Assembly (NCBI GenBank): GCA_024655905.1
Contig: JANLFP010000005.1
Span: 1-64,000 of the forward strand
Direction of reading: 5' to 3'
DNA from: Tepidanaerobacteraceae bacterium
GTDB taxonomy: Bacteria; Bacillota; Thermosediminibacteria; Thermosediminibacterales; Tepidanaerobacteraceae
Length of the DNA stretch: 64,000 bases
In this document: one piece after another, positions 5,124-64,000 of the stretch
How the letters are laid out: the number at the start of each line of letters is the position of its first letter
How positions within the stretch are numbered: position 1 is the first letter of the stretch
Notes under the pieces: model-generated
The model's input: the letters and a program-made list of their open reading frames with translations, nothing else
Databases searched by the model: none
What the model was told of the DNA's origin: nothing
Position numbers and translations under genes: made by a program

Positions 5124-5156
5124 TCAGGCTTTTACAGATTCTCCTGCCCCGTATCA

Positions 5157-6443
5157 TCAGTTATTTTCTATTTCCCTGTTTGTCATCAACACAAATGGAA
5201 TCCACGTAAGGATGGTAACCGCAATGCATATAATCTGGACTATAATACCCTGCCAGCCGTGTCCGATAAAGGCGCCAATTAAGAGCGGAACGCCAAACGG
5301 AGTATCAACCGTATTGCACGGCATAAATCCGATTTTTGTTGCAAACAATGCGATTGCGCAAGAAATGGCGGAATTAAAAATGAACGGAATAGCAAACCTT
5401 ACATTCAATACCAGAGGCAAGCCGAATACAACGGGCTCGCTGATGCCAAACACGCTCGGGCCAAGCCCCACCTTGGCAATCATCCTGTAATCCTCTCGTT
5501 TCGAGCACAGCAATATTGCTATAATCAGCGAAAAGATCATTCCGGCTCCGCCAGGCACAATGAAGTTCATCCAAAAACCGTAAGTAACCGGCTGCGTGGC
5601 CTGCTGACCGGCAGAGACTGCCGCAATATTGGCTGCAATCGCCGCCGCCATGAGCGGATTCCTTATAGGAGATATGACAAGACCGCCATGAATGCCAAGA
5701 AACCAGAATAGCTGCGCGAAAACAACTATCGCAATGATGCCTGCCGGGCTCTGAAAAACTGCTTCCAGCGGGGCCTGCATAACCTTATAGACAAATTCGT
5801 TCAGGTACGTTCCTGTACCCAGTTTGAATAAGGCCCCGAAAACACTTACACTCACCAGGGTAATCAAAATTGGAATCAATGTGTTGAAAGATGTTGAAAT
5901 GCCAGCCGGCACGGATGGCGGCATCGTAATTTTAATTGCTTCGATTCGGGTTAGTTTCGTGAAAAATTCGACAACAACCACGGTTAGGAGCATGCCGACG
6001 AACAGCCCCTGCGCCCCAAGCGCCGGCGCAGGAATGCCTGCGGCGCTTCCGGTAGCCGAATTTACTGTAACCGTTACTACTTCCGGAATGACCGAACAAT
6101 AAGCCGCCACAGCAACAATACCTGCGATGTATTCGGGCACTTTATTCTTTCTGGCCAGATTCATAGCAATGAGGAAAATAACCGGTATGCTCATAATTCC
6201 CAGTGTCGCAAAGTTCATTGCCGTGAAAGCCACGCTTAATTTGCTCAATGCGGGAATCCATTTGGCCAGCCCTGTCTGGGGGCTGCAAATTATTGAATTA
6301 AACAGCGTCGCAAATGAGCCGACAATAACAAAAGGCATGAAAACCGTAAAAGAATCTTTTATGCTATTCAGGTATTTATTCTCATCAACTTTTTCAGCAA
6401 TGACCATTAAAGAATCCTGAAATTTTCCCGATAATTCTGCCAT
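5157..6443 (-). CDS. celB: PTS lactose/cellobiose-family EIIC permease
   Basis: A 428-residue membrane protein with about ten hydrophobic segments. It has the N-terminal signature of cellobiose/lichenan EIIC domains (NKYLNSIKDSFTVFMPFVIV) and the conserved GISEPVVFGLPLVLN motif near residue 335, part of the sugar-binding site. It carries a beta-glucoside across the membrane while EIIB phosphorylates it. A GGAGG site lies 10 nt before the ATG. It follows the EIIB gene by 44 bp and precedes the phospho-glucosidase. The length, without fused domains, is typical of the Lac/Cel family. Confidence 0.92.
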   Translation of the reverse strand: MAELSGKFQDSLMVIAEKVDENKYLNSIKDSFTVFMPFVIVGSFATLFNSIICSPQTGLAKWIPALSKLSVAFTAMNFATLGIMSIPVIFLIAMNLARKNKVPEYIAGIVAVAAYCSVIPEVVTVTVNSATGSAAGIPAPALGAQGLFVGMLLTVVVVEFFTKLTRIEAIKITMPPSVPAGISTSFNTLIPILITLVSVSVFGALFKLGTGTYLNEFVYKVMQAPLEAVFQSPAGIIAIVVFAQLFWFLGIHGGLVISPIRNPLMAAAIAANIAAVSAGQQATQPVTYGFWMNFIVPGGAGMIFSLIIAILLCSKREDYRMIAKVGLGPSVFGISEPVVFGLPLVLNVRFAIPFIFNSAISCAIALFATKIGFMPCNTVDTPFGVPLLIGAFIGHGWQGIIVQIICIAVTILTWIPFVLMTNREIENN

Positions 6444-6487
6444 TTAAATCGTTCCTCCTCTTAACATTCTGATATATTTGTCATTCT

Positions 6488-6799
6488 CTATTTTTTATTC
6501 TTCAACAATTCTTCCGCCTGTTTCAAAACGGCGGCACCGTCACAGCGGCCGTACGCCACAGGATTGATTACATCAACCGGAGCTTTCCCATCAACAATTT
6601 TGCTTACTTTTTTCAAAATATGCCTGACCTGCGGTCCCAGCAATAACACGTCGAAATTGCCCAGTTCTGCTTCAATCTGGGTCTGGTCTGCAGCCCAAAT
6701 CTTATAATCGGTTTTCCCCTGCTGCTTTGCCACCTCCTCCATTTTTGACACCAGCATGCTTGTAGACATTCCAAGACAGCATGCAAGCATAATTCTCAC
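6488..6799 (-). CDS. celA: PTS lactose/cellobiose-family EIIB
   Basis: This phosphocarrier passes phosphate from EIIA to the sugar. I place the start at GTG 6799, six nucleotides after GAGGTG, giving 103 residues; the longer open frame to 6844 would add 15 residues that overlap the EIIA gene and have no homologous counterpart. The phosphorylated residue is Cys7 in ACCLGMSTSM, the C-x-x-GMSTS loop of this family. It lies 25 bp downstream of the EIIA gene. The second Cys beside it is less usual but does not disturb the motif. Confidence 0.9.
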   Translation of the reverse strand: MRIMLACCLGMSTSMLVSKMEEVAKQQGKTDYKIWAADQTQIEAELGNFDVLLLGPQVRHILKKVSKIVDGKAPVDVINPVAYGRCDGAAVLKQAEELLKNKK

Positions 6800-6824
6800 G
6801 GCCTTCACCTCCTCCTTTTCGTTT

Positions 6825-7175
6825 TCATTCCAGGTTGTTTTCAATTGCCAATTTATCCATAAGTCTTTTCATGATTTTATACAAATGTATAAACTCTTCA
6901 GCATTTTTTATGGCCATCATTGCCATTGTCAGATGATCCTGTGCATGAACCAGAATAATATTGACGTCTACCGGAGCTCCGCCGGCTTCCTGCTGAATCA
7001 TCCGGGTTTGCGCACGATGCGCTTCGAGCATTTCCGCTTCGGCTTCCTGCATGCGTGCCTCTGCCTCCGCAAAATCAAATTCTCTCGCCGCTTCAATGGC
7101 CATTAAAGCGGCAGATTTCGCATTTCCTGCATTGGTAATTAATTGAAAGGCACCATCATATTTACTTTCTTCCAT
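6825..7175 (-). CDS. celC: PTS lactose/cellobiose-family EIIA
   Basis: A 116-residue, all-helical phosphocarrier that accepts phosphate from HPr. The active-site block is VHAQDHLTMAM with His77 as the expected phosphorylated residue and Asp80 as its partner in the trimer. The region before it is rich in Ala and Glu, as in this three-helix family. The ribosome site GGAGG overlaps the end of the upstream regulator gene (stop at 7179), so the two are translationally coupled. Confidence 0.9.
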   Translation of the reverse strand: MEESKYDGAFQLITNAGNAKSAALMAIEAAREFDFAEAEARMQEAEAEMLEAHRAQTRMIQQEAGGAPVDVNIILVHAQDHLTMAMMAIKNAEEFIHLYKIMKRLMDKLAIENNLE

Positions 7176-54496: not shown

Positions 54497-54952
54497 CTAA
54501 AACCTCAATGTGGCTATCAATCGCTTTGTATGCTTGAAAAGCTCAAGGGCTTCCGCAATATTGTTCACAACTATGTCGGCTTTAAGCAAAGCATTTGCCG
54601 CAGCGCCTTCATTTCCCAGCACGCATATTGAAAGGTCGTCTATTTCAAACATGCCGGTATCATTGTTGCCGTTACCTATGCATGCCTTGCCGCCCTGGAG
54701 CCTTTCGACGAACCGCTTTTTTTCCTCGGCACTGGATACAATATGGACTTCGGCCTTTAAATTGTTTTGCAAATCGCTTGCCGTACCGTAAGTGTCTGAT
54801 GTCAGCACATAGATTTTATATTGTTCGCTTAATTCATTTATAATAGAAATCGCATCGTCTATCGGCTTGCCGTCTTTTGCAAATGTACCGTTATAATCCA
54901 GCACAATATTCTCAATTTCCAAAGTGCGGTAATTCGGAATATCCCATCTCAC
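54497..54952 (-). CDS. HAD-superfamily hydrolase, P-type-ATPase-like
   Basis: A 151-residue single-domain HAD protein. Motif I is LDYNGTFAKDG with the nucleophile Asp and an Asn where the second Asp usually stands; motif II is VLTSDTYG; motif III a Lys in AEEKKRFVE; motif IV is IGNGNNDTGMF. This layout resembles the P-domain of P-type ATPases and the small soluble KdpB-like HADs. It likely acts on a small phosphorylated molecule, but no substrate is evident. Start GTG 54952, seven nt after GAGGGGTG; TTG 54958 is an alternative. No neighbour helps. Confidence 0.75.
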   Translation of the reverse strand: MRWDIPNYRTLEIENIVLDYNGTFAKDGKPIDDAISIINELSEQYKIYVLTSDTYGTASDLQNNLKAEVHIVSSAEEKKRFVERLQGGKACIGNGNNDTGMFEIDDLSICVLGNEGAAANALLKADIVVNNIAEALELFKHTKRLIATLRF

Positions 54953-55063
54953 AGTCAAACACCCCTCTCCTATCAGTCGTTTAAACAGGCTTTTATCATT
55001 ATTTTGCGCATTTTCATCTTGGAATTTTAAACGAGTTTTAAAACGAAGCGATTATGCACCGCC

Positions 55064-55095
55064 AAAAAAGCTCATGAGCAATCATGAGCTTTTTT
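55064..55095. terminator. Terminator at the end of the acs operon
   Basis: AAAAAAGCTCATGA pairs perfectly with TCATGAGCTTTTTT. It lies 7 bp beyond the DUF3842 stop on the minus strand and closes the run of genes beginning with acsD. Confidence 0.9.
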
Positions 55096-55101
55096 GACTA
55101 A

Positions 55102-55521
55102 TTACAATACGCTGCTGCAATCCCTTATCTTATCTATGGCTTCTTTTATGGATAAAAACAACGGTTTTTTTTCCATGCCGAGCAACACCATGTCTTCGCT
55201 GTCCACAATTGGTATAAGGATTTTTTTAGCGCTGCAGGATGTTATGGCTTCGGCGATTTTCGGAGTTATCTCTCCCATCATGGAATTGGGTATTACTATA
55301 CCCAGGGAGCCAACAACCACATCGGCCTTTTTTACGCTGTAAACGATGGCGCTTTCACCGGTGGCCCCTCTGTTGGCCTTTTCCTTCATCATGTTCGTGG
55401 TGGCGGCGGAATTGGTGCCCAGGGCATATATCCTCACGTCCGGCGGCAAGTCCTGCCTCAAAAGGGCGATGACCTGAGCGCCTATGCCTCCTCCCATGCC
55501 GTCTACTACCGCCACTATCAT
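55102..55521 (-). CDS. DUF3842 protein
   Basis: A 139-residue protein of the DUF3842 family. It starts MIVAVVDGMGGGIGAQVIAL, with a glycine-rich loop like a Rossmann fold, and continues with LGTNSAATTNMMKEKANRGA and VVGSLGIVIPNSMMGEITPK. No function is established. Its start overlaps the stop of cooT by four bases (ATGA), so it is coupled to a nickel-protein gene at the end of the acs operon. A link to Ni or corrinoid cofactor handling is inference. Confidence 0.8.
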   Translation of the reverse strand: MIVAVVDGMGGGIGAQVIALLRQDLPPDVRIYALGTNSAATTNMMKEKANRGATGESAIVYSVKKADVVVGSLGIVIPNSMMGEITPKIAEAITSCSAKKILIPIVDSEDMVLLGMEKKPLFLSIKEAIDKIRDCSSVL

Positions 55522-55718
55522 TTCTTATCTTTCCTGCTTTCCAGTATTATCTTATGCTCGAGAAGCTTTACCTCTTTTATGACTGCATCCACTATCTTCT
55601 GCTCGCCCAGCAGGTCATACATGAATACCTTGCCGTCCTGAGGCTCGATGTAAATCACATTTTCCATTATAGGCATTTCGGAACCGTTTTCCCTAAGATA
55701 AACCCTGGATTCGCACAT
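55518..55718 (-). CDS. cooT: CooT-type nickel-binding protein
   Basis: A 66-residue protein with the family start MCESRVYLRENGSEMPIMEN and core EPQDGKVFMYDLLGEQKIVD. The conserved Cys2 near the N-terminus is the nickel ligand known for CooT, which supplies Ni to CO dehydrogenase. Start ATG 55718, eight nt after GGGGTG; the frame to 55754 lacks a ribosome site. Its position downstream of acsB and acsV fits a role in nickel supply to acetyl-CoA synthase or CO dehydrogenase. Confidence 0.82.
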   Translation of the reverse strand: MCESRVYLRENGSEMPIMENVIYIEPQDGKVFMYDLLGEQKIVDAVIKEVKLLEHKIILESRKDKK

Positions 55719-55784
55719 ATGCTTTTCACCCCTGCCATTATTTTCATTTTTCATTATTATTTTGCAACATTTTCGTCTTATTGT

Positions 55785-56036
55785 CTAGATATGTTTTTTC
55801 GCTTCCAATAGGTACAGGCTTGCTGCATTGAGCGAATCCGCAGCTTTTGATATCAACTCCGCAACCCTTGCCTTTCCGAGTTTATCGGATTTTTCGGCCC
55901 ACTCTCTGAAATTTTCTTCATGGGACTTGTTGTGTTCTATCCAATGGGCCAGAAGAATGCGCAGGGTTTCAATATCCTTATCCTTGTCCTGAATAGAACC
56001 GCCAGCAGATGGATGATTGTGATTGTGATCGCACAT
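55785..56036 (-). CDS. Small His-rich helical protein of the acs operon
   Basis: An 83-residue protein. The N-terminus MCDHNHNHPSAGG carries a Cys and three His that could bind metal. The rest is helical with conserved-looking LLAHWIEHNKSHEENFREWA and KARVAELISKAADSLNAA. I do not recognise a characterised family, though similar short proteins occur near acs genes. The start is ATG 56036, eight nt after GGAGG. It lies 66 bp before cooT and 135 bp after acsV, which suggests a nickel or cofactor chaperone; that is inference. Confidence 0.7.
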   Translation of the reverse strand: MCDHNHNHPSAGGSIQDKDKDIETLRILLAHWIEHNKSHEENFREWAEKSDKLGKARVAELISKAADSLNAASLYLLEAKKHI

Positions 56037-56110
56037 AGTCAATACCTCCATATAAATATTGATTTGCCTGGTTTGCCAACATTTTAATGCCTGAGTTAGT
56101 GCGCTGCCGT

Positions 56111-56164
56111 GAGTCAATTGAGTCGGGGACGGTTCCTTGACTCATTTCATCCCCTGACTCATTT
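56111..56164. repeat. REP-like GAGTCA...GACTC element
   Basis: Three imperfect copies of a GAGTCA/TGACTC palindrome enclose GGGGACGGTTCCTTGACTCA and its reverse-oriented part CCCCTGACTC. The GTCAAGGAACCGTCCCCTGAC motif is a widespread repeat in Firmicutes, often linked to IS200-like (RAYT) transposases. It occupies the acsV-to-downstream gap. Confidence 0.6.
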
Positions 56165-56171
56165 GGCAACT

Positions 56172-58100
56172 CTATTTATATACGTACCTGACGCTGGGGA
56201 ATAAGTTCATGTCGGTATGTGGCAAGAAGCATGCGCTGACGAATTCTTCCATATAGGCGGGGTCCGCGCTCAGCTCTATATAAGTCATCAAATCGGCAAT
56301 CTGCCGCGCTTTATGTCTCGCTTCATCGCTGATGAGGCACAGATATGCCCCCGTAAGCGAGCTGTTGCCGATAAATTCGAACCTGCTCCTGTCTATGTCC
56401 GGAAGCAAGCCAATCCGCACGGAGTTTTCAATGTCCAGGTTCTGTCCTATTCCTCCGGCTATGATTACCTTTTGTATATCATTCATGCCAAGCCCCACGC
56501 CGTTGAGGAGGGTTTTAATGCCTGAATAAACGGCACCCTTTGCCCTCAAGAAATTGTCGATGTCAATCTCGTTTATCACTATATCCCTGCCGTGGGCTGT
56601 GTCTTTTGCAGGCACCAGCAAATACTCGCGGCATCCCGCAGTATTATCGAAACGTATCCTGCAACTCTTCGAAAATTGCTTTATCTTGCCTTTTCCATCG
56701 ATTATGCCGGAAAAAAACATCCCTGCTATCAAATCAATTATTCCTGAACCGCATATGCCCGAAGGTTTGGTATTGCCTATCACATTGACGTTGGGTATAA
56801 AAGTTTTTTCATCTATCCTTACCCCGTCTATAGCGCCTGGAGCCGCCCTCATGCCGCAGCTGATGTCTCCGCCCTCAAAAGCCGGGCCTGCTGAACAGGC
56901 GCATGTCACCATCCAGTCTCTGTTTCCCAGCACCAGTTCGCCGTTTGTGCCGAGATCCATGAACAGCGTGATTTCATCGCTGTTCCAGAACCCTGCTGCC
57001 AGAACTCCAGATGTTATATCTCCACCTACATAGCTCGCCACATTTGGGAGAATGTAAACCGGAGCGTTTGGATTGATGTCGAGGGCTATGTCTTTCGCCC
57101 TGAAAACCGGTGAATTTCTGAACGCCGGGATATATGGCTCAAGCCTTATGTTTTCGGCGGGCACGCCCAAGAATAAATGGGTCATCGTCGTGTTGCCGGC
57201 AAAAACGGAACTGACAATATCCTCCCGCCTGCAATCCTTTTTTTCCATCATGCGTTCTATCAGTTTGTTCACATTGCCCTGCACTATGGCATCCCGAAGT
57301 TTTTCAAGGCCGCCGGGCTTTGTGGAATGAATTATCCTGCTTATGACATCCGCGCCGTACTGCATTTGGAGGTTTCCGGAGTTGGCCGAGGCTTCGATCT
57401 CACCGGTATATAAATCGACGAGGCATGCTGCTACGGTGGTGGTTCCTATATCCACGCAAAGGCCGTATATCTTTTTTTCCTTATTCGCCGCTATGTCCAG
57501 AATCTCATAGTTTTTTTCATCTTCACGAAGCACAAGGTTCACATCAAAACCGGCCTCTCTGATTATCCGCGGCATTTTTCTCAAGACTTCCACAGAACAG
57601 TCCGGTTTTTTTGATTCCATCAATGGATTTAACTCCCTTGCAATTCTCTCAAAATCCGGAATATTGTCGTCCAGAGTGGGTTCCTTAATTTTTATTTCTA
57701 TCGATCTGAAGCTGTTTTGAAGCTTTATGCCGGAGTCTTTCAAAACCTGAATGGCTTTTTCCACCCTCAATTTTTTTGTTTTATCAGATGTAATATCTTC
57801 AACTATTATATCACCAACGCCTACGGTTTGCACGAGTTCCACCGTCATATCGCCCTCTACGGTTGTAAGGCAGGCAAGCCTTATGCCGCTCTCTTCTTCT
57901 TGCCGGTCAATAAGGCGGGAAGGCTTATACCGGTGTTCCCCTTCGATTACTTTTACCCTGCATTTTCCGCACTGGCCCCTTCCCCCGCAAGGTGCATCAA
58001 GAAAAACCCCGGCTTTTTGCGCTGCATCCATGAGGCTGGTACCCTTTTCCACTTCCACGTTCTTTGCCGAGGGTTTAAAATGAACAGAGCATGTCCGCAT
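56172..58100 (-). CDS. acsV: Reductive activator of the corrinoid iron-sulfur protein (RACo-type)
   Basis: A 642-residue protein that uses ATP to reduce the inactive Co(II) form of the corrinoid iron-sulfur protein. The N-terminal plant-type [2Fe-2S] ferredoxin domain has Cys38, Cys44, Cys47 and Cys77 (APCGGRGQCGKC). A linker follows to about residue 205, and the C-terminal ASKHA ATPase (DUF4445) starts VDIGTTTVAACLVDLYTG and ends with IIAGGIGQNLDIENSVRIGL. Start ATG 58100 after AGGTGG. It follows gcvH in the acs operon. Confidence 0.92.
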   Translation of the reverse strand: MRTCSVHFKPSAKNVEVEKGTSLMDAAQKAGVFLDAPCGGRGQCGKCRVKVIEGEHRYKPSRLIDRQEEESGIRLACLTTVEGDMTVELVQTVGVGDIIVEDITSDKTKKLRVEKAIQVLKDSGIKLQNSFRSIEIKIKEPTLDDNIPDFERIARELNPLMESKKPDCSVEVLRKMPRIIREAGFDVNLVLREDEKNYEILDIAANKEKKIYGLCVDIGTTTVAACLVDLYTGEIEASANSGNLQMQYGADVISRIIHSTKPGGLEKLRDAIVQGNVNKLIERMMEKKDCRREDIVSSVFAGNTTMTHLFLGVPAENIRLEPYIPAFRNSPVFRAKDIALDINPNAPVYILPNVASYVGGDITSGVLAAGFWNSDEITLFMDLGTNGELVLGNRDWMVTCACSAGPAFEGGDISCGMRAAPGAIDGVRIDEKTFIPNVNVIGNTKPSGICGSGIIDLIAGMFFSGIIDGKGKIKQFSKSCRIRFDNTAGCREYLLVPAKDTAHGRDIVINEIDIDNFLRAKGAVYSGIKTLLNGVGLGMNDIQKVIIAGGIGQNLDIENSVRIGLLPDIDRSRFEFIGNSSLTGAYLCLISDEARHKARQIADLMTYIELSADPAYMEEFVSACFLPHTDMNLFPSVRYVYK

Positions 58101-58160: not shown

Positions 58161-58535
58161 TTATAGACTTTTTTCGTAATCGGTATTATTCATCAAATTG
58201 TCCAGTTCTCCCGGATCGGCAATTTTTACCTTAATCATCCATCCCTTATCATACGGGGATTCGTTAACAATTTCGGGACTGTCTTCCAATTCCCCGTTGA
58301 CCTCTATTACTTCGCCGCTCACAGGTGCATACAAATCCGACGCCACTTTGGCGGACTCCACGCTTCCGAAAACTTCCCCCTGCTTTATCTTTTTGCCCGC
58401 ATCCGGCAAATCCACATATAGGATTTCTCCCAGCTGGTCCTGAGCGTGATCGGTAATGCCTATGGTGGCCACATCACCTTCAATCTTTGCCCATGTATGC
58501 TCGGCATGATATTTGATGTCAGACGGAAATTCCAT
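58161..58535 (-). CDS. gcvH: Glycine cleavage system H protein
   Basis: A 124-residue lipoyl carrier. The lipoylated Lys63 is in GSVESAKVASDLY and the overall fold signature (EHTWAKIEGDVATIGITDHA) is complete. It moves the aminomethyl group between the P, T and L proteins. No other gcv gene is in the window, but in acetogens gcvH often sits inside the acs cluster. GGAGG is placed before the ATG. Confidence 0.95.
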   Translation of the reverse strand: MEFPSDIKYHAEHTWAKIEGDVATIGITDHAQDQLGEILYVDLPDAGKKIKQGEVFGSVESAKVASDLYAPVSGEVIEVNGELEDSPEIVNESPYDKGWMIKVKIADPGELDNLMNNTDYEKSL

Positions 58536-58855
58536 GATATCCCTCCTTTTATTTTTAATAAATAACCATCATCATTCACCGATGCAACGATTTTTTGCTC
58601 GCTCCAAGTTCGCACCGACAGCACCGCGGTTTGTTCGGACTGAAATTGCGGCACTGCAAATGCGGAATGAATCTTTCCGCCATGCCATATTTATTTGCAA
58701 AGCCAGTTTTAATAAATGTGTGGCTTTAATCTGCCACAAAGCTTCATGCCGCAGACCGATTACCCTCACTGCGCTTTGTGCTTTTACCGGCGCTGCACAA
58801 GTCACTTGGCAAAAAACCACTTGCACCATCGCAAGGTGCCGAATAATAACATTTT
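58536..58855. other. 320-bp gap in the acs operon, no gene
   Basis: Between acsB and gcvH. GC-richer than nearby spacers with many short repeats of GCAC, GTGC and CGGTG/CACCG. Both strands carry open frames, but none has a ribosome site or recognisable protein. Part of it (AAAGCGCAGT) resembles 61040-61055. It may be an old insertion or a structured RNA. Confidence 0.4.
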
Positions 58856-60979
58856 TTACAGCATCGGATCCATGGCCAGTGCGGGATGGCCGATTTTTGT
58901 CAAATATTCCACTACCGTATCCGGATCGGTGCCTACGGTCTCGTCGGCTATCATGTCGTAGAAGTTGTCTACGCCCATTTCTTTTGCTCTTTGTTCCAGT
59001 TTTTCCTTCAGAGCCTCTTTTAATTCTTTAGGCATCCAGACCACTCTGGCGAGCCCGCCGTCGGCATACAGGAATTTTTTGCTGGTGATGAACTGCCGTC
59101 CGTGGCCCATAAATCCCGGCGTTTGGACACCTCCTCCCGTGGTTGATGCTAGTTCCCCGAAGGTCATGCCCAGTGGCGTCATGCCCGCATACTCTCTGTT
59201 GACTATTATGACTCCATTGGCTTCGGGCATGATTCCGCAGATGCATTCAAAGCACCCGCACGATGTCATCGGGTCTTCCATTATGGTATAAATATTCACT
59301 TTGCTTACAGCACCGTGGGAAAGCTCAGACACCGCTTTGTCCACTGTTTCCCAGCTGCCCTTCACTTCATCGGCGCATGCGCCTTTTTCTATGGGCTGGC
59401 ATGGCCCGGCTGGATTGAGTTCCTTTGTGGCTTTGGCGTCCAGCCAGCTCACTGCGCCGCAAAGCCCCAGCCTTTCCGGCGTCACTATGCACACATGGGC
59501 CGGCGCAAAGGATTGGCAAAGCAGGCATGAATAGAAGGTGTCCACGCTCTCGTCGGTAAGTCCTGCCAGTCTGGCATCCCTGGCTTCATATCGCGGCTTT
59601 GCTATTTCATCCAGAAGTTTTTCTACTTTTTCCTTGTCGGTAATTATGGTTACCTGCACCTTATCCACAATGCTTCCGAATTCATCAAGCATCTTGGCAT
59701 AGAGCACTTCTCCGATATGTTTGAGCCTGAAGCCCGCATCGTAGGTGGATTTGCTTATCCTTATCCATACGATGTCCCGCTGCCCCAGGTGCATTACTCC
59801 TTCTGTATAATTGGCAAAATAATGTATCCTTCTTTCCATAACAGGCTCAAAATCCTGCTGCATGTTCTTGCCGGCGACTTCCACCAGCAGCGCCAGAGGG
59901 AGCTTGCCTCCATCGGGCGCGAGAGTGTCTAAATCCGGACCGATCACTTCTATCTTATGGTCTTCAACCTCCGACATCTCTCTCATCCTCACCAGTTCCC
60001 AGGCTGTGGTCCTGCTTCCTCCAAATTCGGCGAACATGTCTTCCTTTCTTACCCTCTCGCCTTCGAAAGCCGCTGCAAACCCTACCGGGATGGGAATTTC
60101 CGTGATTTTTATTTTTATACCCCTGGCTTCCAGGGACGTGGCAACGATTTTATCGTAATCCTTCTGAACTATGAGATTTTCGGGTACTTCCTGGACGTCC
60201 TGGTCGGTTATTACCGGGAATCCCAGGGCGATGGCTCCTGCTCCTGCGGATACCACTAGTTCGCTCAAGGGGCCAAGAGCATTGACAAAAGCGGGAACCC
60301 TCTCTTTTGTGTATTTGAGAAGCTCGGCGAGATTCCCCGGCTGAACATTGCCGAAAATGAGGGCTGCCCTTATGGCCACAGTCACCACATGAATAACCGA
60401 TGTGACATCATACCCGAGCGGTATAACCCTGAGCTCCAGGCCCATTTTAACCTTAGCATTTATCGCCTGGTCTATGATTTTCCCCACCAGGAAAACCAGC
60501 AGGCCCTTGTTCTGATATCCCTTTATGACTTTTGCAGCCTCTTCCTCTGACGGCGCTTCGCCTATAACCACGGCCACACCCGGAATATCTCCGGTCACCA
60601 ATGGAACCCCCAGGGAGCGGATTACTGTATCCGGAACAAAGCCGATGCACAGCTCTGCATAAGGCGTGGCTCCTCCCGCATACTTGCAGGCCTCTATCAC
60701 TTCCGCCGCCACGGCGGTTGCAAGACCTGCATTGAGAGCTTTTTCCAGATTCTGCTCTTTGACTATGAGGCTCTCGATTATCGGCATGACACCCTTCAAT
60801 TCGGCAAGGGTGCTTATTTTCTTGCCCGTAGCTGCATAAATCGTGGGCAGGCTGTACGCGGTGCCGGGAAAAGCAACTTTTTCATTTTCCCCCAGTTCCG
60901 CCACCGTCTTTTCCACAACAGACTTGCATGCGGCAAGAGCCTGCTCGGATCCCGTGAAAATAATGTCGAATAAGCTCAC
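58856..60979 (-). CDS. acsB: Acetyl-CoA synthase (CO dehydrogenase/ACS alpha subunit)
   Basis: Joins CO, a methyl group from the corrinoid protein and CoA at the nickel A-cluster. The 707-residue size is usual for bacterial ACS. A-cluster ligands lie in CLLCQSFAPAHVC, GLCGAVSWLDA, GPCQPIEKG and CGCFECICG near residues 495-590. The N-terminal CODH-interacting domain (about 1-300) is present. Start GTG 60979, eight nt after GGAGG; the frame to 61039 lacks a ribosome site. acsA, the CO dehydrogenase, is not in the window and may lie beyond 64000. Confidence 0.96.
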   Translation of the reverse strand: MSLFDIIFTGSEQALAACKSVVEKTVAELGENEKVAFPGTAYSLPTIYAATGKKISTLAELKGVMPIIESLIVKEQNLEKALNAGLATAVAAEVIEACKYAGGATPYAELCIGFVPDTVIRSLGVPLVTGDIPGVAVVIGEAPSEEEAAKVIKGYQNKGLLVFLVGKIIDQAINAKVKMGLELRVIPLGYDVTSVIHVVTVAIRAALIFGNVQPGNLAELLKYTKERVPAFVNALGPLSELVVSAGAGAIALGFPVITDQDVQEVPENLIVQKDYDKIVATSLEARGIKIKITEIPIPVGFAAAFEGERVRKEDMFAEFGGSRTTAWELVRMREMSEVEDHKIEVIGPDLDTLAPDGGKLPLALLVEVAGKNMQQDFEPVMERRIHYFANYTEGVMHLGQRDIVWIRISKSTYDAGFRLKHIGEVLYAKMLDEFGSIVDKVQVTIITDKEKVEKLLDEIAKPRYEARDARLAGLTDESVDTFYSCLLCQSFAPAHVCIVTPERLGLCGAVSWLDAKATKELNPAGPCQPIEKGACADEVKGSWETVDKAVSELSHGAVSKVNIYTIMEDPMTSCGCFECICGIMPEANGVIIVNREYAGMTPLGMTFGELASTTGGGVQTPGFMGHGRQFITSKKFLYADGGLARVVWMPKELKEALKEKLEQRAKEMGVDNFYDMIADETVGTDPDTVVEYLTKIGHPALAMDPML

Positions 60980-61130
60980 GATAAGCTCCTCCTTTTTCAA
61001 ATATAATATTGGTGTAGAAAATATGTCCACTGCCTCCACAAAGCGCAGGACTAAACTCTAGAGCGACAGGATGAGCGGAGGTGCCGGGCCATCGCCGGCA
61101 GCGAATTTTAGTTTCTTCACCAAAATCAAA

Positions 61131-61916
61131 TTACAACTCCAGGTAGGAATCGCAGTACAGATTTCTGCCTTTTATTACATCCGCAGTCTTGATGATGTCC
61201 ATGAGCATCCTGTTTAGCGGATTTACGATGGCCGAGGTCAAGCCGCACTGGATTGCCATGGCGCAGAAAGTCGCTTCGATGAGTCCTCTCAGCTCTTTCG
61301 GGCAGCCGTTGGAAACGTTGCTCAGGCCGCCGGTAGTCTTGAATCCCATTTCGGTAATCTGGCGAAGTGCCTCCAGAACCTCCTGCTGCTTGTCCTGCAT
61401 CCCTTTCACCACCACAAAAAGGGGGTCGAACAAAATATTTTCAGGGTCAAGCCCCGCTGCCATCGCCCTGTCGAGGATTTCGGTGCAGTACTGGATTCTT
61501 TCGTCGTTGTCTCTGGGTATGCCCTCTTTTGCGCAAAGTCCAATGACCATGGCATCATATTCCGCCGCCAGATCTATCATTCCTATTCTTGAACCGGCAT
61601 CGGCCGAATTTATTATCGGCTTTCCGGCCTTGCGGTCGTAAACTTTGATTCCGGCCTCCAGAGCTTTGGTATTTGCGGTATCCAGGCATAGAGGGGTGTT
61701 GGGGAATTCCTGCTGAAGGAGCTTCACAACCCACGGCATCAGTTCTTCGCCATCCCTGTCCGCAGGCCCTATGTTCACATCAAGATAATTGGCTCCAGCT
61801 TCCACCTGCTCCCTGGCCCTTTCTACGATTGGTTTTGGGTCCCTTTCCTGCAGCGCTTTTCTTATGACAGGGGATATTACGTGAATTCGTTCTCCTATTG
61901 ATATAAATCTGGCCAT
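61131..61916 (-). CDS. acsE: Methyltetrahydrofolate:corrinoid/iron-sulfur protein methyltransferase
   Basis: A 261-residue TIM barrel that passes the methyl group from 5-methyltetrahydrofolate to the corrinoid protein. Pterin-binding residues are in FISIGERIHVISP, ANYLDVNIGPADRDGEE, INSADAGSRIG and TTGGLSNVSNGCP. Length is standard. GGAGG is eight nt before the ATG. It lies 25 bp after acsC. Confidence 0.95.
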   Translation of the reverse strand: MARFISIGERIHVISPVIRKALQERDPKPIVERAREQVEAGANYLDVNIGPADRDGEELMPWVVKLLQQEFPNTPLCLDTANTKALEAGIKVYDRKAGKPIINSADAGSRIGMIDLAAEYDAMVIGLCAKEGIPRDNDERIQYCTEILDRAMAAGLDPENILFDPLFVVVKGMQDKQQEVLEALRQITEMGFKTTGGLSNVSNGCPKELRGLIEATFCAMAIQCGLTSAIVNPLNRMLMDIIKTADVIKGRNLYCDSYLEL

Positions 61917-61941: not shown

Positions 61942-63303
61942 TTATGACGCCTTTTCCTGGCGGTACTCCTTTAAAAACGCCGGCAGAGCAGCGGCTTCGC
62001 GGGTTCCCACTATTACCTTCCAGCCCGGCAGTTCGTCTTCGATGTCGGATTTCAAAACCGCCACTTTCCCCGGGATGATGAGTTCTCTCGTCTTCAGCTT
62101 GCCTTCCACTTCAAAATCCTTAATCGCCTTTGCAATGGATTTTGCATTGAGTTTTCCCGAAGCCCATGCAGTCAGCACCGAATATCCCCCTGCATCGGGA
62201 ATCAGTATCCATGACGGCACCTTTGCCCTCTCCACCTCTCCGGAAACTATGAAATATGTCAGCGCAAAGTCTACGGTAACCAGAAGAGGCGATTTTTCAT
62301 CAGCCTGACCTATTCTGTAAATGCCCTGTTCAATCCTCATGGGCCTCTGAGGATCGGTGTAAATATTCTGCCTCAGGGAAAAGAGGGGCAGAGCCATTGA
62401 GTAATCCATATCGCTCAATACAATAATCGACGCATATTTTTCAATAAACAGCGCCGCCATGGCGACTTCCATCATCTTATCCCGCGTCATGTCGCACACA
62501 AAAGCCACAGTGGGGTATCCAAAAGTCCTGTCTTTTGAAAGAAGCGCCGTCCGCCTTATATTGACAGCATCATCAAAGGCGGTTTTCAAACTCCTGCCGC
62601 CGCCGTCCAGGAGAAGTTCGCGAAAGCCCATGCTCTGTATCTTCTGGACAGTATCATACAACTTTGCCTGATCCTCTGCTTTTACTCCGAGCAGAAGTTT
62701 GTGCTTGCTTGCTATTCCTGCCATGGCTTCGCAGTTTTTTTCATTTGCACCGTAAATTATGGGCCCAAGGGCGGCAAATTCTTCCGCAGCTGCCGAAGCT
62801 ATGTCTGGATCTTCGGAAATTATCATGGGCACCACTTTTTTGCAATCGGAAGTAACCTTTTTAATCAGCGAAATAAATTTCTGCTTGTCTTGCGACGAGC
62901 ACCTGAATGCCGCTATCTCCACGTACATTTCTTCGCTGATGCGGGTATAATTCACCGCATTTATATGGTTGATTTTTTTTGCTACATCATCCGCATTTTC
63001 TCCATCGTCGAACATCACCGCAAATCTGGGTTTGTTCACGAATGTTTTCTCGTGCCTGAAAAGGACATTTTCGCCTCCCAGTGAATATGCCCTGTCACCT
63101 ATGCCGAATGTCACCGTCTTCATTGGCGGGGCTGTAGCCTCTGCCAGTTTGTCTTTCGCCTCATCGGACATGTAAGGGCATTTTTCCGCCTGAGTTCCTC
63201 CCTGAGCCAGCTTCATGGCAAAGGCGAGGCATGTGGGGAACCCGCATTCCTTGCAATTTTTCTTTGGAAGCATTTTGTATATTTCCATACCATTTAAGGC
63301 CAT
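61942..63303 (-). CDS. acsC: Corrinoid/iron-sulfur protein large subunit
   Basis: A 453-residue subunit that carries the methyl group on cobalamin and holds a low-potential [4Fe-4S] cluster. Cluster Cys residues are 17, 20, 25 and 42 in NCKECGFPTC and QAEKCPY. A TIM-barrel domain follows, then a C-terminal Rossmann-like corrinoid domain (residues about 320-445). Start ATG 63303, six nt after AGGAGTG; the frame to 63312 adds three residues. It is 18 bp after acsD. Confidence 0.96.
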   Translation of the reverse strand: MALNGMEIYKMLPKKNCKECGFPTCLAFAMKLAQGGTQAEKCPYMSDEAKDKLAEATAPPMKTVTFGIGDRAYSLGGENVLFRHEKTFVNKPRFAVMFDDGENADDVAKKINHINAVNYTRISEEMYVEIAAFRCSSQDKQKFISLIKKVTSDCKKVVPMIISEDPDIASAAAEEFAALGPIIYGANEKNCEAMAGIASKHKLLLGVKAEDQAKLYDTVQKIQSMGFRELLLDGGGRSLKTAFDDAVNIRRTALLSKDRTFGYPTVAFVCDMTRDKMMEVAMAALFIEKYASIIVLSDMDYSMALPLFSLRQNIYTDPQRPMRIEQGIYRIGQADEKSPLLVTVDFALTYFIVSGEVERAKVPSWILIPDAGGYSVLTAWASGKLNAKSIAKAIKDFEVEGKLKTRELIIPGKVAVLKSDIEDELPGWKVIVGTREAAALPAFLKEYRQEKAS

Positions 63304-63320
63304 GATCATCACTCCTATCG

Positions 63321-64000
63321 TTATAACAGTTCATCGATAAAATTGCGGATAATCTCCACGGATTTTGGATGCCTCAAAATAACGGCGTTGGAACCCGCAG
63401 CCAGCACCCCCGCGGCTGTTGCTATTTCCATGGCGATGCCTCTTTCTTCCTGGCTGCCCCATTCGGGCATATCTTCTTCCGATGCCGCAGATTCTTTAAC
63501 TTTCCATGTTTCGAAGGATACCGGGCTAACAATCGGCATTTGAAGTGTGGCGTCGTTCTGGTCCAGGGCGGCCAGCTTTATCCTGTCCATTGTGGTGATT
63601 ACATACTCGAAGCCGTATCCCACCGCAGCGCATCCGGGGTTCATCACCATTTTTTCCGGTTTTACACCCAGCTGGGTTATGAGTATGTTCAACTGTTTTG
63701 CCAGATTTAAATCAACCGAAGACTCGGCGCTCACGATGTTCCCGTATGCCATTCCGCAGGCGGCGCCTACCTCCTTGTAGTTGGCTTCCACCGCCGAAAG
63801 GAAGACATAATTTTTGTCCGGCAAAGCCTCGGCTATTTTGACAAATATTTTGGCGTTTTTTTCATCGGAATCGCATCCCGCTATCATCAGCGGAACCGGC
63901 ACTTCCCCCGCAAGCCTCTCCGCCGTCCGGGCGCATTCCTCCGGAGACCTGTCTTCTCCTTCCGGATTTGCTCCCTCAAATCTTATGCATATAAAATCGG
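63321..64000 (-). CDS. acsD: Corrinoid/iron-sulfur protein small subunit (start beyond window)
   Basis: The C-terminal 226 residues of the CoFeSP small subunit. The frame stays open past 64000, reading FICIRFEGANPEGEDRSPEE at the edge. Family features include PLMIAGCDSDEKNAKIFVKI, LSAVEANYKEVGAACGMAYG and MVMNPGCAAVGYGFEYVI of a TIM-barrel. The subunit supports the large subunit and binds the corrinoid. The start codon and promoter of the operon lie outside. Confidence 0.93.
   Translation of the reverse strand, partial: DFICIRFEGANPEGEDRSPEECARTAERLAGEVPVPLMIAGCDSDEKNAKIFVKIAEALPDKNYVFLSAVEANYKEVGAACGMAYGNIVSAESSVDLNLAKQLNILITQLGVKPEKMVMNPGCAAVGYGFEYVITTMDRIKLAALDQNDATLQMPIVSPVSFETWKVKESAASEEDMPEWGSQEERGIAMEIATAAGVLAAGSNAVILRHPKSVEIIRNFIDELL

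Follow-up and report, generated by a model that had tools for sequence, protein, structure and literature searches.

In R. rubrum, CooC, CooT, and CooJ are required when nickel is scarce, and cooC, cooT, and cooJ mutants need extra nickel; CooT binds nickel via Cys2 and CooJ binds several nickel ions (PMC6006190). CooT and CooJ are already known from operons that encode carbon monoxide dehydrogenase (CODH) and acetyl-CoA synthase (ACS) (PMC13056359; for CooT also PMC6344411), and a survey from 2026 collected CooJ by hand (PMC13056359). In C. autoethanogenum, deletion of cooT (nbp) or of the adjacent His-rich gene (hp) lowered the amounts of AcsB and CooS1 protein and shifted the products; the deletion strains had no growth defect on minimal medium, and loss of cooT left autotrophic growth on this medium unimpaired whether or not nickel was supplemented (PMC10230548). 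The His content of hp and the position of its gene suggest that hp is CooJ. If so, the deletions of cooJ and cooT that were called for when the present locus was first interpreted have in part been published already (PMC10230548).

The locus analyzed here lies in a stretch of 64,000 nucleotides from a Tepidanaerobacteraceae bacterium (assembly GCA_024655905.1, contig JANLFP010000005.1), referred to as the window. It resembles R. rubrum cooCTJ in bringing together CooC-like ATPases, CooT, and a CooJ-type protein in the operon of a Ni-CODH, and differs from it in that ACS is part of the operon, two CooC-like ATPases are encoded, and a gene for a DUF3842 protein is added. A small His-rich protein and CooT are encoded right behind the C1-fixation cluster, as with hp and nbp of C. 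autoethanogenum, and DUF3842 is unmentioned in the part of that report considered here (PMC10230548). The locus is interpreted, with a probability of roughly 0.7, as the CooJ/CooT nickel-supply set of a CODH/ACS operon, joined by DUF3842 as an accessory of CooT. A literature search limited to the open-licence part of PubMed Central turned up no mention of DUF3842. Nor did it turn up the constant company that DUF3842 keeps with CooT, its association with genes for nickel transport and hydrogenase maturation, or the distinct clade of trio-type DUF3842; within that scope these are new.

Organization of the locus

All three genes of the trio named in the original prediction were found on the minus strand, at 55102..56036, in the order CooJ-type gene, cooT, and DUF3842, and all of them downstream of acsV (Table 1). 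The expected ATGA overlap of the cooT stop with the DUF3842 start was seen at 55521-55518, and a strong hairpin terminator lies directly 3' of DUF3842. Beyond the window, further upstream on this contig, are genes for two MinD-type (CooC-like) ATPases, at 64375 and 72669, with lpdA and methyl-branch genes between them, and then the gene for the CODH catalytic subunit at approximately 73474-75369. Both ATPases are P-loop proteins of the MinD/CbiA type, and no CooC-specific model named either of them.

The trio had been placed on one transcript with the acs genes. The common strand and the closing hairpin make a single transcript plausible, and a search for a promoter signal found none above chance (7 sites versus 6.4 expected). 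The caveat is the 135-nt gap between acsV and cooJ, where a hairpin folds better than most shuffles; this stem could be an attenuator or a message-processing element. The same spacer is rich in palindromes (GAGTC...GACTC, TCGGGGACGGTTCC) and could be a repeat element or an attenuator. An open reading frame in the gap between gcvH and acsB (58572..58829) was considered as a further gene; it has no family match and is probably not one, because its match in the nearest relative splits into two overlapping, frame-shifted pieces. Just past the operon terminator, the window encodes a small HAD-type protein (54497..54958, minus strand) that resembles the phosphatase domain of P-type ATPases, and a DUF166 protein is encoded between fhs and fchA of the same operon (contig position approximately 69782).

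Table 1. Coordinates of the trio, its flanking signals, and the acs genes upstream
Feature	Position	Strand	Evidence or remark
Bidirectional hairpin terminator, operon end	55061..55098	.	-26.8 kcal/mol, z -6.1
DUF3842, 139 aa, signature DGMGGGIG	55102..55521	-	PF12953; model pLDDT 94
CooT, 66 aa from likely start	55518..55718	-	PF10133; 6fan match; ribosome-binding site
CooJ-type protein, 83 aa	55785..56036	-	GGAGG 8 nt before ATG; helical hairpin predicted
HWIEHNKSH codons (HWx2Hx3H; residues 31-39 of CooJ-type protein)	55920..55946	-	
acsV-cooJ spacer with sizeable stem	56037..56171	-	z -2.4
acsV, upstream neighbor of the CooJ-type gene (corrinoid activation/regeneration protein)	56172..58100	-	NF040756, 918 bits
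gcvH	58161..58535	-	Pfam and NCBIfam
acsB (acetyl-CoA synthase)	58856..61039	-	Pfam and NCBIfam
acsE (methyltransferase)	61131..61916	-	NCBIfam
acsC	61942..63312	-	NCBIfam
acsD	63321..64000 in window, continues to 64289	-	

The 83-residue protein as a CooJ candidate

The first protein of the trio had been described as His/Cys-rich and unassigned. The former is generous: the protein has 7 His and 1 Cys overall, with 3 His and the Cys in its first 8 residues, and conservation extends to the HWIEHNxSH core and not to the tail. Close relatives have the common core TLRILLAHWIEHN.SHEE.FR.WA but do not share the N-terminal tail that carries the His and Cys residues, several having no His tail. Across 18 diverse members from Bacillota, Chloroflexota, Desulfobacterota, Nitrospirota, and archaea, the set from which the broad profile was built, the invariant residues are H31, W32, H35, N36, H39, and A79 (HW..HN..H). 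Pfam and NCBIfam returned no match for the protein, loose thresholds giving chance hits only, and NCBIfam had no match for the other two trio proteins either.

R. rubrum CooJ reportedly carries an HWx2Hx3H signature (Alfano et al. 2019, cited in PMC7079680), and it is a helical-hairpin protein that forms a coiled-coil homodimer. The signature was presumed to be a mark of CooJ before any test was performed and was then seen directly in the sequence of R. rubrum CooJ (PDB 6hk5), in an HF.. form; HWIEHNKSH of the window protein fits the resulting H(W/F)x2Hx3H. The broad profile aligned with R. rubrum CooJ at 13 bits, collinearly over 63 positions, with LAHFLDHVEGH of the latter paired with LAHWIEHNESH. 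Against this single target, 1 of 50,000 composition-preserving shuffles reached that score, and none had the motif. In a search of the whole PDB, the 6hk5 match was weak (E 0.8) and by itself not decisive, designed helical proteins scoring equally or better, and the broad profile was needed, as PDB searches with a narrow profile or with single sequences found no CooJ. The predicted model of the monomer is a two-helix hairpin (pLDDT 89); 6hk5 was absent among the 50 matches listed when this model was submitted to Foldseek. The matches listed were rubrerythrins and other helical bundles; none of them was significant, and they were treated as generic helices.

The motif, the profile match to R. 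rubrum CooJ, the predicted hairpin, and the adjacency of cooT in a CODH-bearing operon led to the protein being filed as CooJ-type. It can be described with good, if not complete, confidence as a putative nickel chaperone of this kind, and so is better termed a candidate for a described protein than an unassigned one. The window protein and R. rubrum CooJ are alike in the HWx2Hx3H-type site (HF.. in R. rubrum CooJ), the hairpin (predicted here), and a gene beside cooT and CODH. They differ in the His-rich tail, which is common among homologs, short in the window protein, and absent from some relatives; it is N-terminal here, whereas that of R. rubrum CooJ is C-terminal. The operon differs as well, encoding CODH/ACS with DUF3842 added.

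Distribution of the CooJ-type family and its link to ACS

When about 85,000 species genomes were scanned, the 83-residue family was found at 35 loci, 25 of them from Thermosediminibacterales (11) and Peptostreptococcaceae including Clostridioides (14) and the other 10 from Chloroflexota, Desulfobacterota, Nitrospirota, and archaea. In all 25 Thermosediminibacterales and Peptostreptococcaceae loci the gene stands together with cooT and DUF3842. Most of these trios (21/25) are downstream of acsB-gcvH-acsV, with at most two genes between in Peptostreptococcaceae; the remaining four adjoin a NikMN/CbiQ transporter instead of acs, and ACS is encoded elsewhere in those four genomes. A third trio lineage came from a sample of the class Clostridia, in which one genome has the order AcsB-CooJ-CooT-DUF3842-CooJ. 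The trio gene order is far beyond chance.

When the broad profile was applied to 80 ACS genomes, five more members were obtained (E < 1e-6), each immediately upstream of a cooT start and found by the profile with neighborhood left out of the search. Some of the five have His-rich tails of approximately 50 to 110 residues, and some have an altered first His or Trp. Among broad-profile homologs the tail holds from 0 to 17 His residues, with far more at loci L191, L192, L206, and L210. In most of the lineages examined, cooT stands beside the family member. Two side observations concern individual loci. At L191, an open reading frame beside cooJ and cooT combines a long His-rich tail with what appears, by eye, to be an RcnR/CsoR-type metal-sensing repressor domain. 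At L072 (Romboutsia, 5142..6943), acsV and cooT are separated by two genes, a radical SAM gene (PF04055) and one that lacks a Pfam match, and both may have acs-linked functions.

Co-occurrence was counted over a fixed set of 378 genomes from the phylum to which the window belongs, and every search used this set. ACS was present in 108 of them (29%), CooT above its cut-off in 111, and DUF3842 in 170. The original prediction tied both the 83-residue family and DUF3842 to acs, and their occurrence mostly outside acs genomes was to count against it. The former family is indeed linked to acs, with ACS in 30 of 31 member genomes, a figure to be read against baselines of 29% in the window's phylum and 67% (53/79) in a phylum that holds some of the distant loci. 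DUF3842 goes against the proposal, since 85 of its 170 genomes have ACS and 85 do not; it is not restricted to ACS genomes, as a factor specific for the ACS A-cluster would be. CooT occurs with ACS in 87 of 111 genomes and without it in 24. DUF3842 is present in 105 of the 111 CooT genomes and absent from 6, and in 61 genomes it occurs with neither CooT nor ACS. The proposal that the two proteins are candidates for nickel loading of the A-cluster or CODH is thus upheld as far as it ties the nickel set to CODH/ACS, and is not supported in the specificity for the A-cluster or CODH that it gave to DUF3842.

CooT and DUF3842

The assignment of CooT was confirmed by PF10133 (1.5e-24; 86.5 bits against a curated cut-off of 27) and by a phmmer match to R. 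rubrum CooT (6fan; 4.4e-5). The open reading frame spans 55518..55754, and the likely start at 55718, where GGGGTG precedes ATG, gives the N-terminal sequence MCESRVYL with Cys2 in place. The protein is of the same family as its R. rubrum counterpart and shares Cys2; here it is paired with DUF3842, and some relatives in such pairs are fused to DUF4198.

DUF3842 is a clear member of PF12953 (5.1e-48; 163 bits against a curated cut-off of 28.5). Its predicted model is of the Rossmann type, with a DGxGGGIG loop. The trio had been regarded as consisting of small metal proteins, a description that does not fit DUF3842, as no conserved His or Cys was found in 42 sequences. Comparisons by Foldseek and VIA-align left Rossmann folds of the FtsZ, malate/lactate dehydrogenase, and UbiX types tied near Z 8-10, a tie that does not permit a choice between GTP and NAD; going by the model, the ligand is likely a nucleotide or dinucleotide. 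In a tree of 91 DUF3842 sequences, all 28 trio-type copies formed one clade (support 100/90, with the bootstrap not fully settled), which sets them apart from PF12953 at large. The motif DGMGGGIG was present in 28 of the 28, and mostly DGQGGGIG in the others. In this sample the clade is confined to CooJ/CooT cassettes, and an acs-linked DUF3842 copy of the non-trio type (L142) falls outside it. The fixed DGMGGG signature suggests adaptation to the CooJ/CooT partners.

Genomic neighborhoods of the DUF3842-CooT pair

At least 63 genomes carry the DUF3842 and CooT genes close together on one strand, usually with DUF3842 first and mostly 18-85 bp apart, and where acsB is on the same contig the pair is nearly always distant from it. 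In Desulfobacterota, 3 of the 3 DUF3842 genes found are directly upstream of CooT. A NikM/CbiM-type transporter gene lies within 6 kb of 20 of 45 pair loci, spread over 10 families; NikM and CbiM were counted as one class, so some of these may be cobalt transporters. Within the same distance, HypB is encoded at 7 of the 45 loci and the large subunit of [NiFe] hydrogenase at 6, and 21 have no nickel gene, their surroundings being mostly housekeeping genes (yebC-ruvCAB, nadE, cysK). Fusions of CooT to DUF4198 through an HHHHH linker were seen at loci L107-L110 and in relatives; their cluster also holds DUF3842, FmdE, Ni/Co ECF genes, HypAB, and [NiFe] hydrogenase.

Of 23 loci where DUF3842 stands without CooT, 12 have the gene for an unnamed ECF S-component next to it and 4 have a cation-efflux gene there. 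The role of DUF3842 may therefore be broader than nickel, given these neighbors and the 61 genomes that have DUF3842 without CooT or ACS. The S-component (L111, L114, L160, L161, L163, L164, L166-L169) has a conserved PMH(I/L/F)PxxxxG motif, and its matches to FolT, ThiT, and ThiW were sub-threshold only.

Discussion

On the best reading, the trio closes the CODH/ACS operon with genes for nickel supply. CooJ would buffer Ni(II) with its variable His/Cys tail and hold one nickel at the HWx2Hx3H site; CooT, as a dimer built around Cys2, would take the nickel and, with CooC-type ATPases, pass it to the C-cluster of CODH and possibly to ACS also. Since the operon has CooC-like ATPases, CooT, and CooJ beside CODH and ACS, the role with the best support for CooJ and CooT is to store nickel and hand it on to CODH. 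The presence of ACS in nearly every genome with the 83-residue family, including those of distant phyla and archaea, and the position of most trios directly after acsB-gcvH-acsV would suit a dedicated role of the 83-residue protein and DUF3842 in loading nickel into the A-cluster of ACS and not into the CODH C-cluster. That alternative is nonetheless improbable: the operon also encodes CODH, which co-occurs with ACS, CooJ and CooT of R. rubrum serve CODH without ACS (PMC6006190), ACS is common anyway in some of the groups concerned, and half of the sampled DUF3842 genomes are without it. Encoded in one operon and nearly always found together, CODH and ACS are not separable as targets by these data. 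Corrinoid handling together with AcsV, also part of the original prediction, has nothing in its favor beyond the adjacency of acsV and the chance that some CbiM-type neighbors import cobalt, and is very improbable, considering that CooT and CooJ are nickel proteins used for CODH in R. rubrum (PMC6006190), that the trio stays together beside NikMN when away from acsV, and that some DUF3842-CooT pairs have HypAB and [NiFe] hydrogenase as neighbors.

Judged by linkage and fold, DUF3842 most likely helps CooT through a step that requires a nucleotide, or else links CooT with the uptake of nickel. As an accessory of CooT that is not itself a metal binder, this Rossmann-type, probably nucleotide- or dinucleotide-binding protein would connect CooT with uptake through NikMN/CbiMQO or gate the hand-over to whichever nickel enzyme is being made. 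The ECF S-component and cation-efflux genes beside CooT-less DUF3842, and the NikMN/CbiMQO neighbors of pairs in 10 families, could instead reflect general uptake of metals or micronutrients via ECF-type transporters, with DUF3842 present in the acs operon only through its physical tie to cooT. Such an explanation is possible, if doubtful; trio-type DUF3842 forms a clade of its own with a fixed DGMGGG signature, and most acs-operon trios had no adjacent transporter genes in a survey that was not aimed at transporters. A role as a linked bystander, with a housekeeping task and no part in nickel handling, is unlikely for DUF3842. Many pairs do stand upstream of yebC-ruvCAB, nadE, or cysK, in a neighborhood of NAD, cysteine, and DNA-repair genes, and the 61 genomes without CooT and ACS are compatible with such a job, but CooT rarely occurs without DUF3842 in the window's phylum (6/111), and the adjacency is kept across many different neighborhoods and in a second phylum.

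The accessory role preferred here for DUF3842 can be extended, tentatively, to that of a nucleotide-dependent CooT partner in a general bacterial route from nickel import to nickel enzymes, with the CooJ/CooT cassettes harboring a specialized clade. If this is true, the DUF3842 route would join import by NikMN/CbiMQO to CODH/ACS and to [NiFe] hydrogenase. Present in close to half of the genomes sampled from the phylum, DUF3842 is named here as a protein that constantly accompanies CooT and, in many cases, genes for nickel import. The small 83-residue protein becomes a testable CooJ, with a usable profile where Pfam and NCBIfam returned nothing. CODH and ACS are central to acetogenesis and gas fermentation, which is why the route by which nickel gets to them matters.
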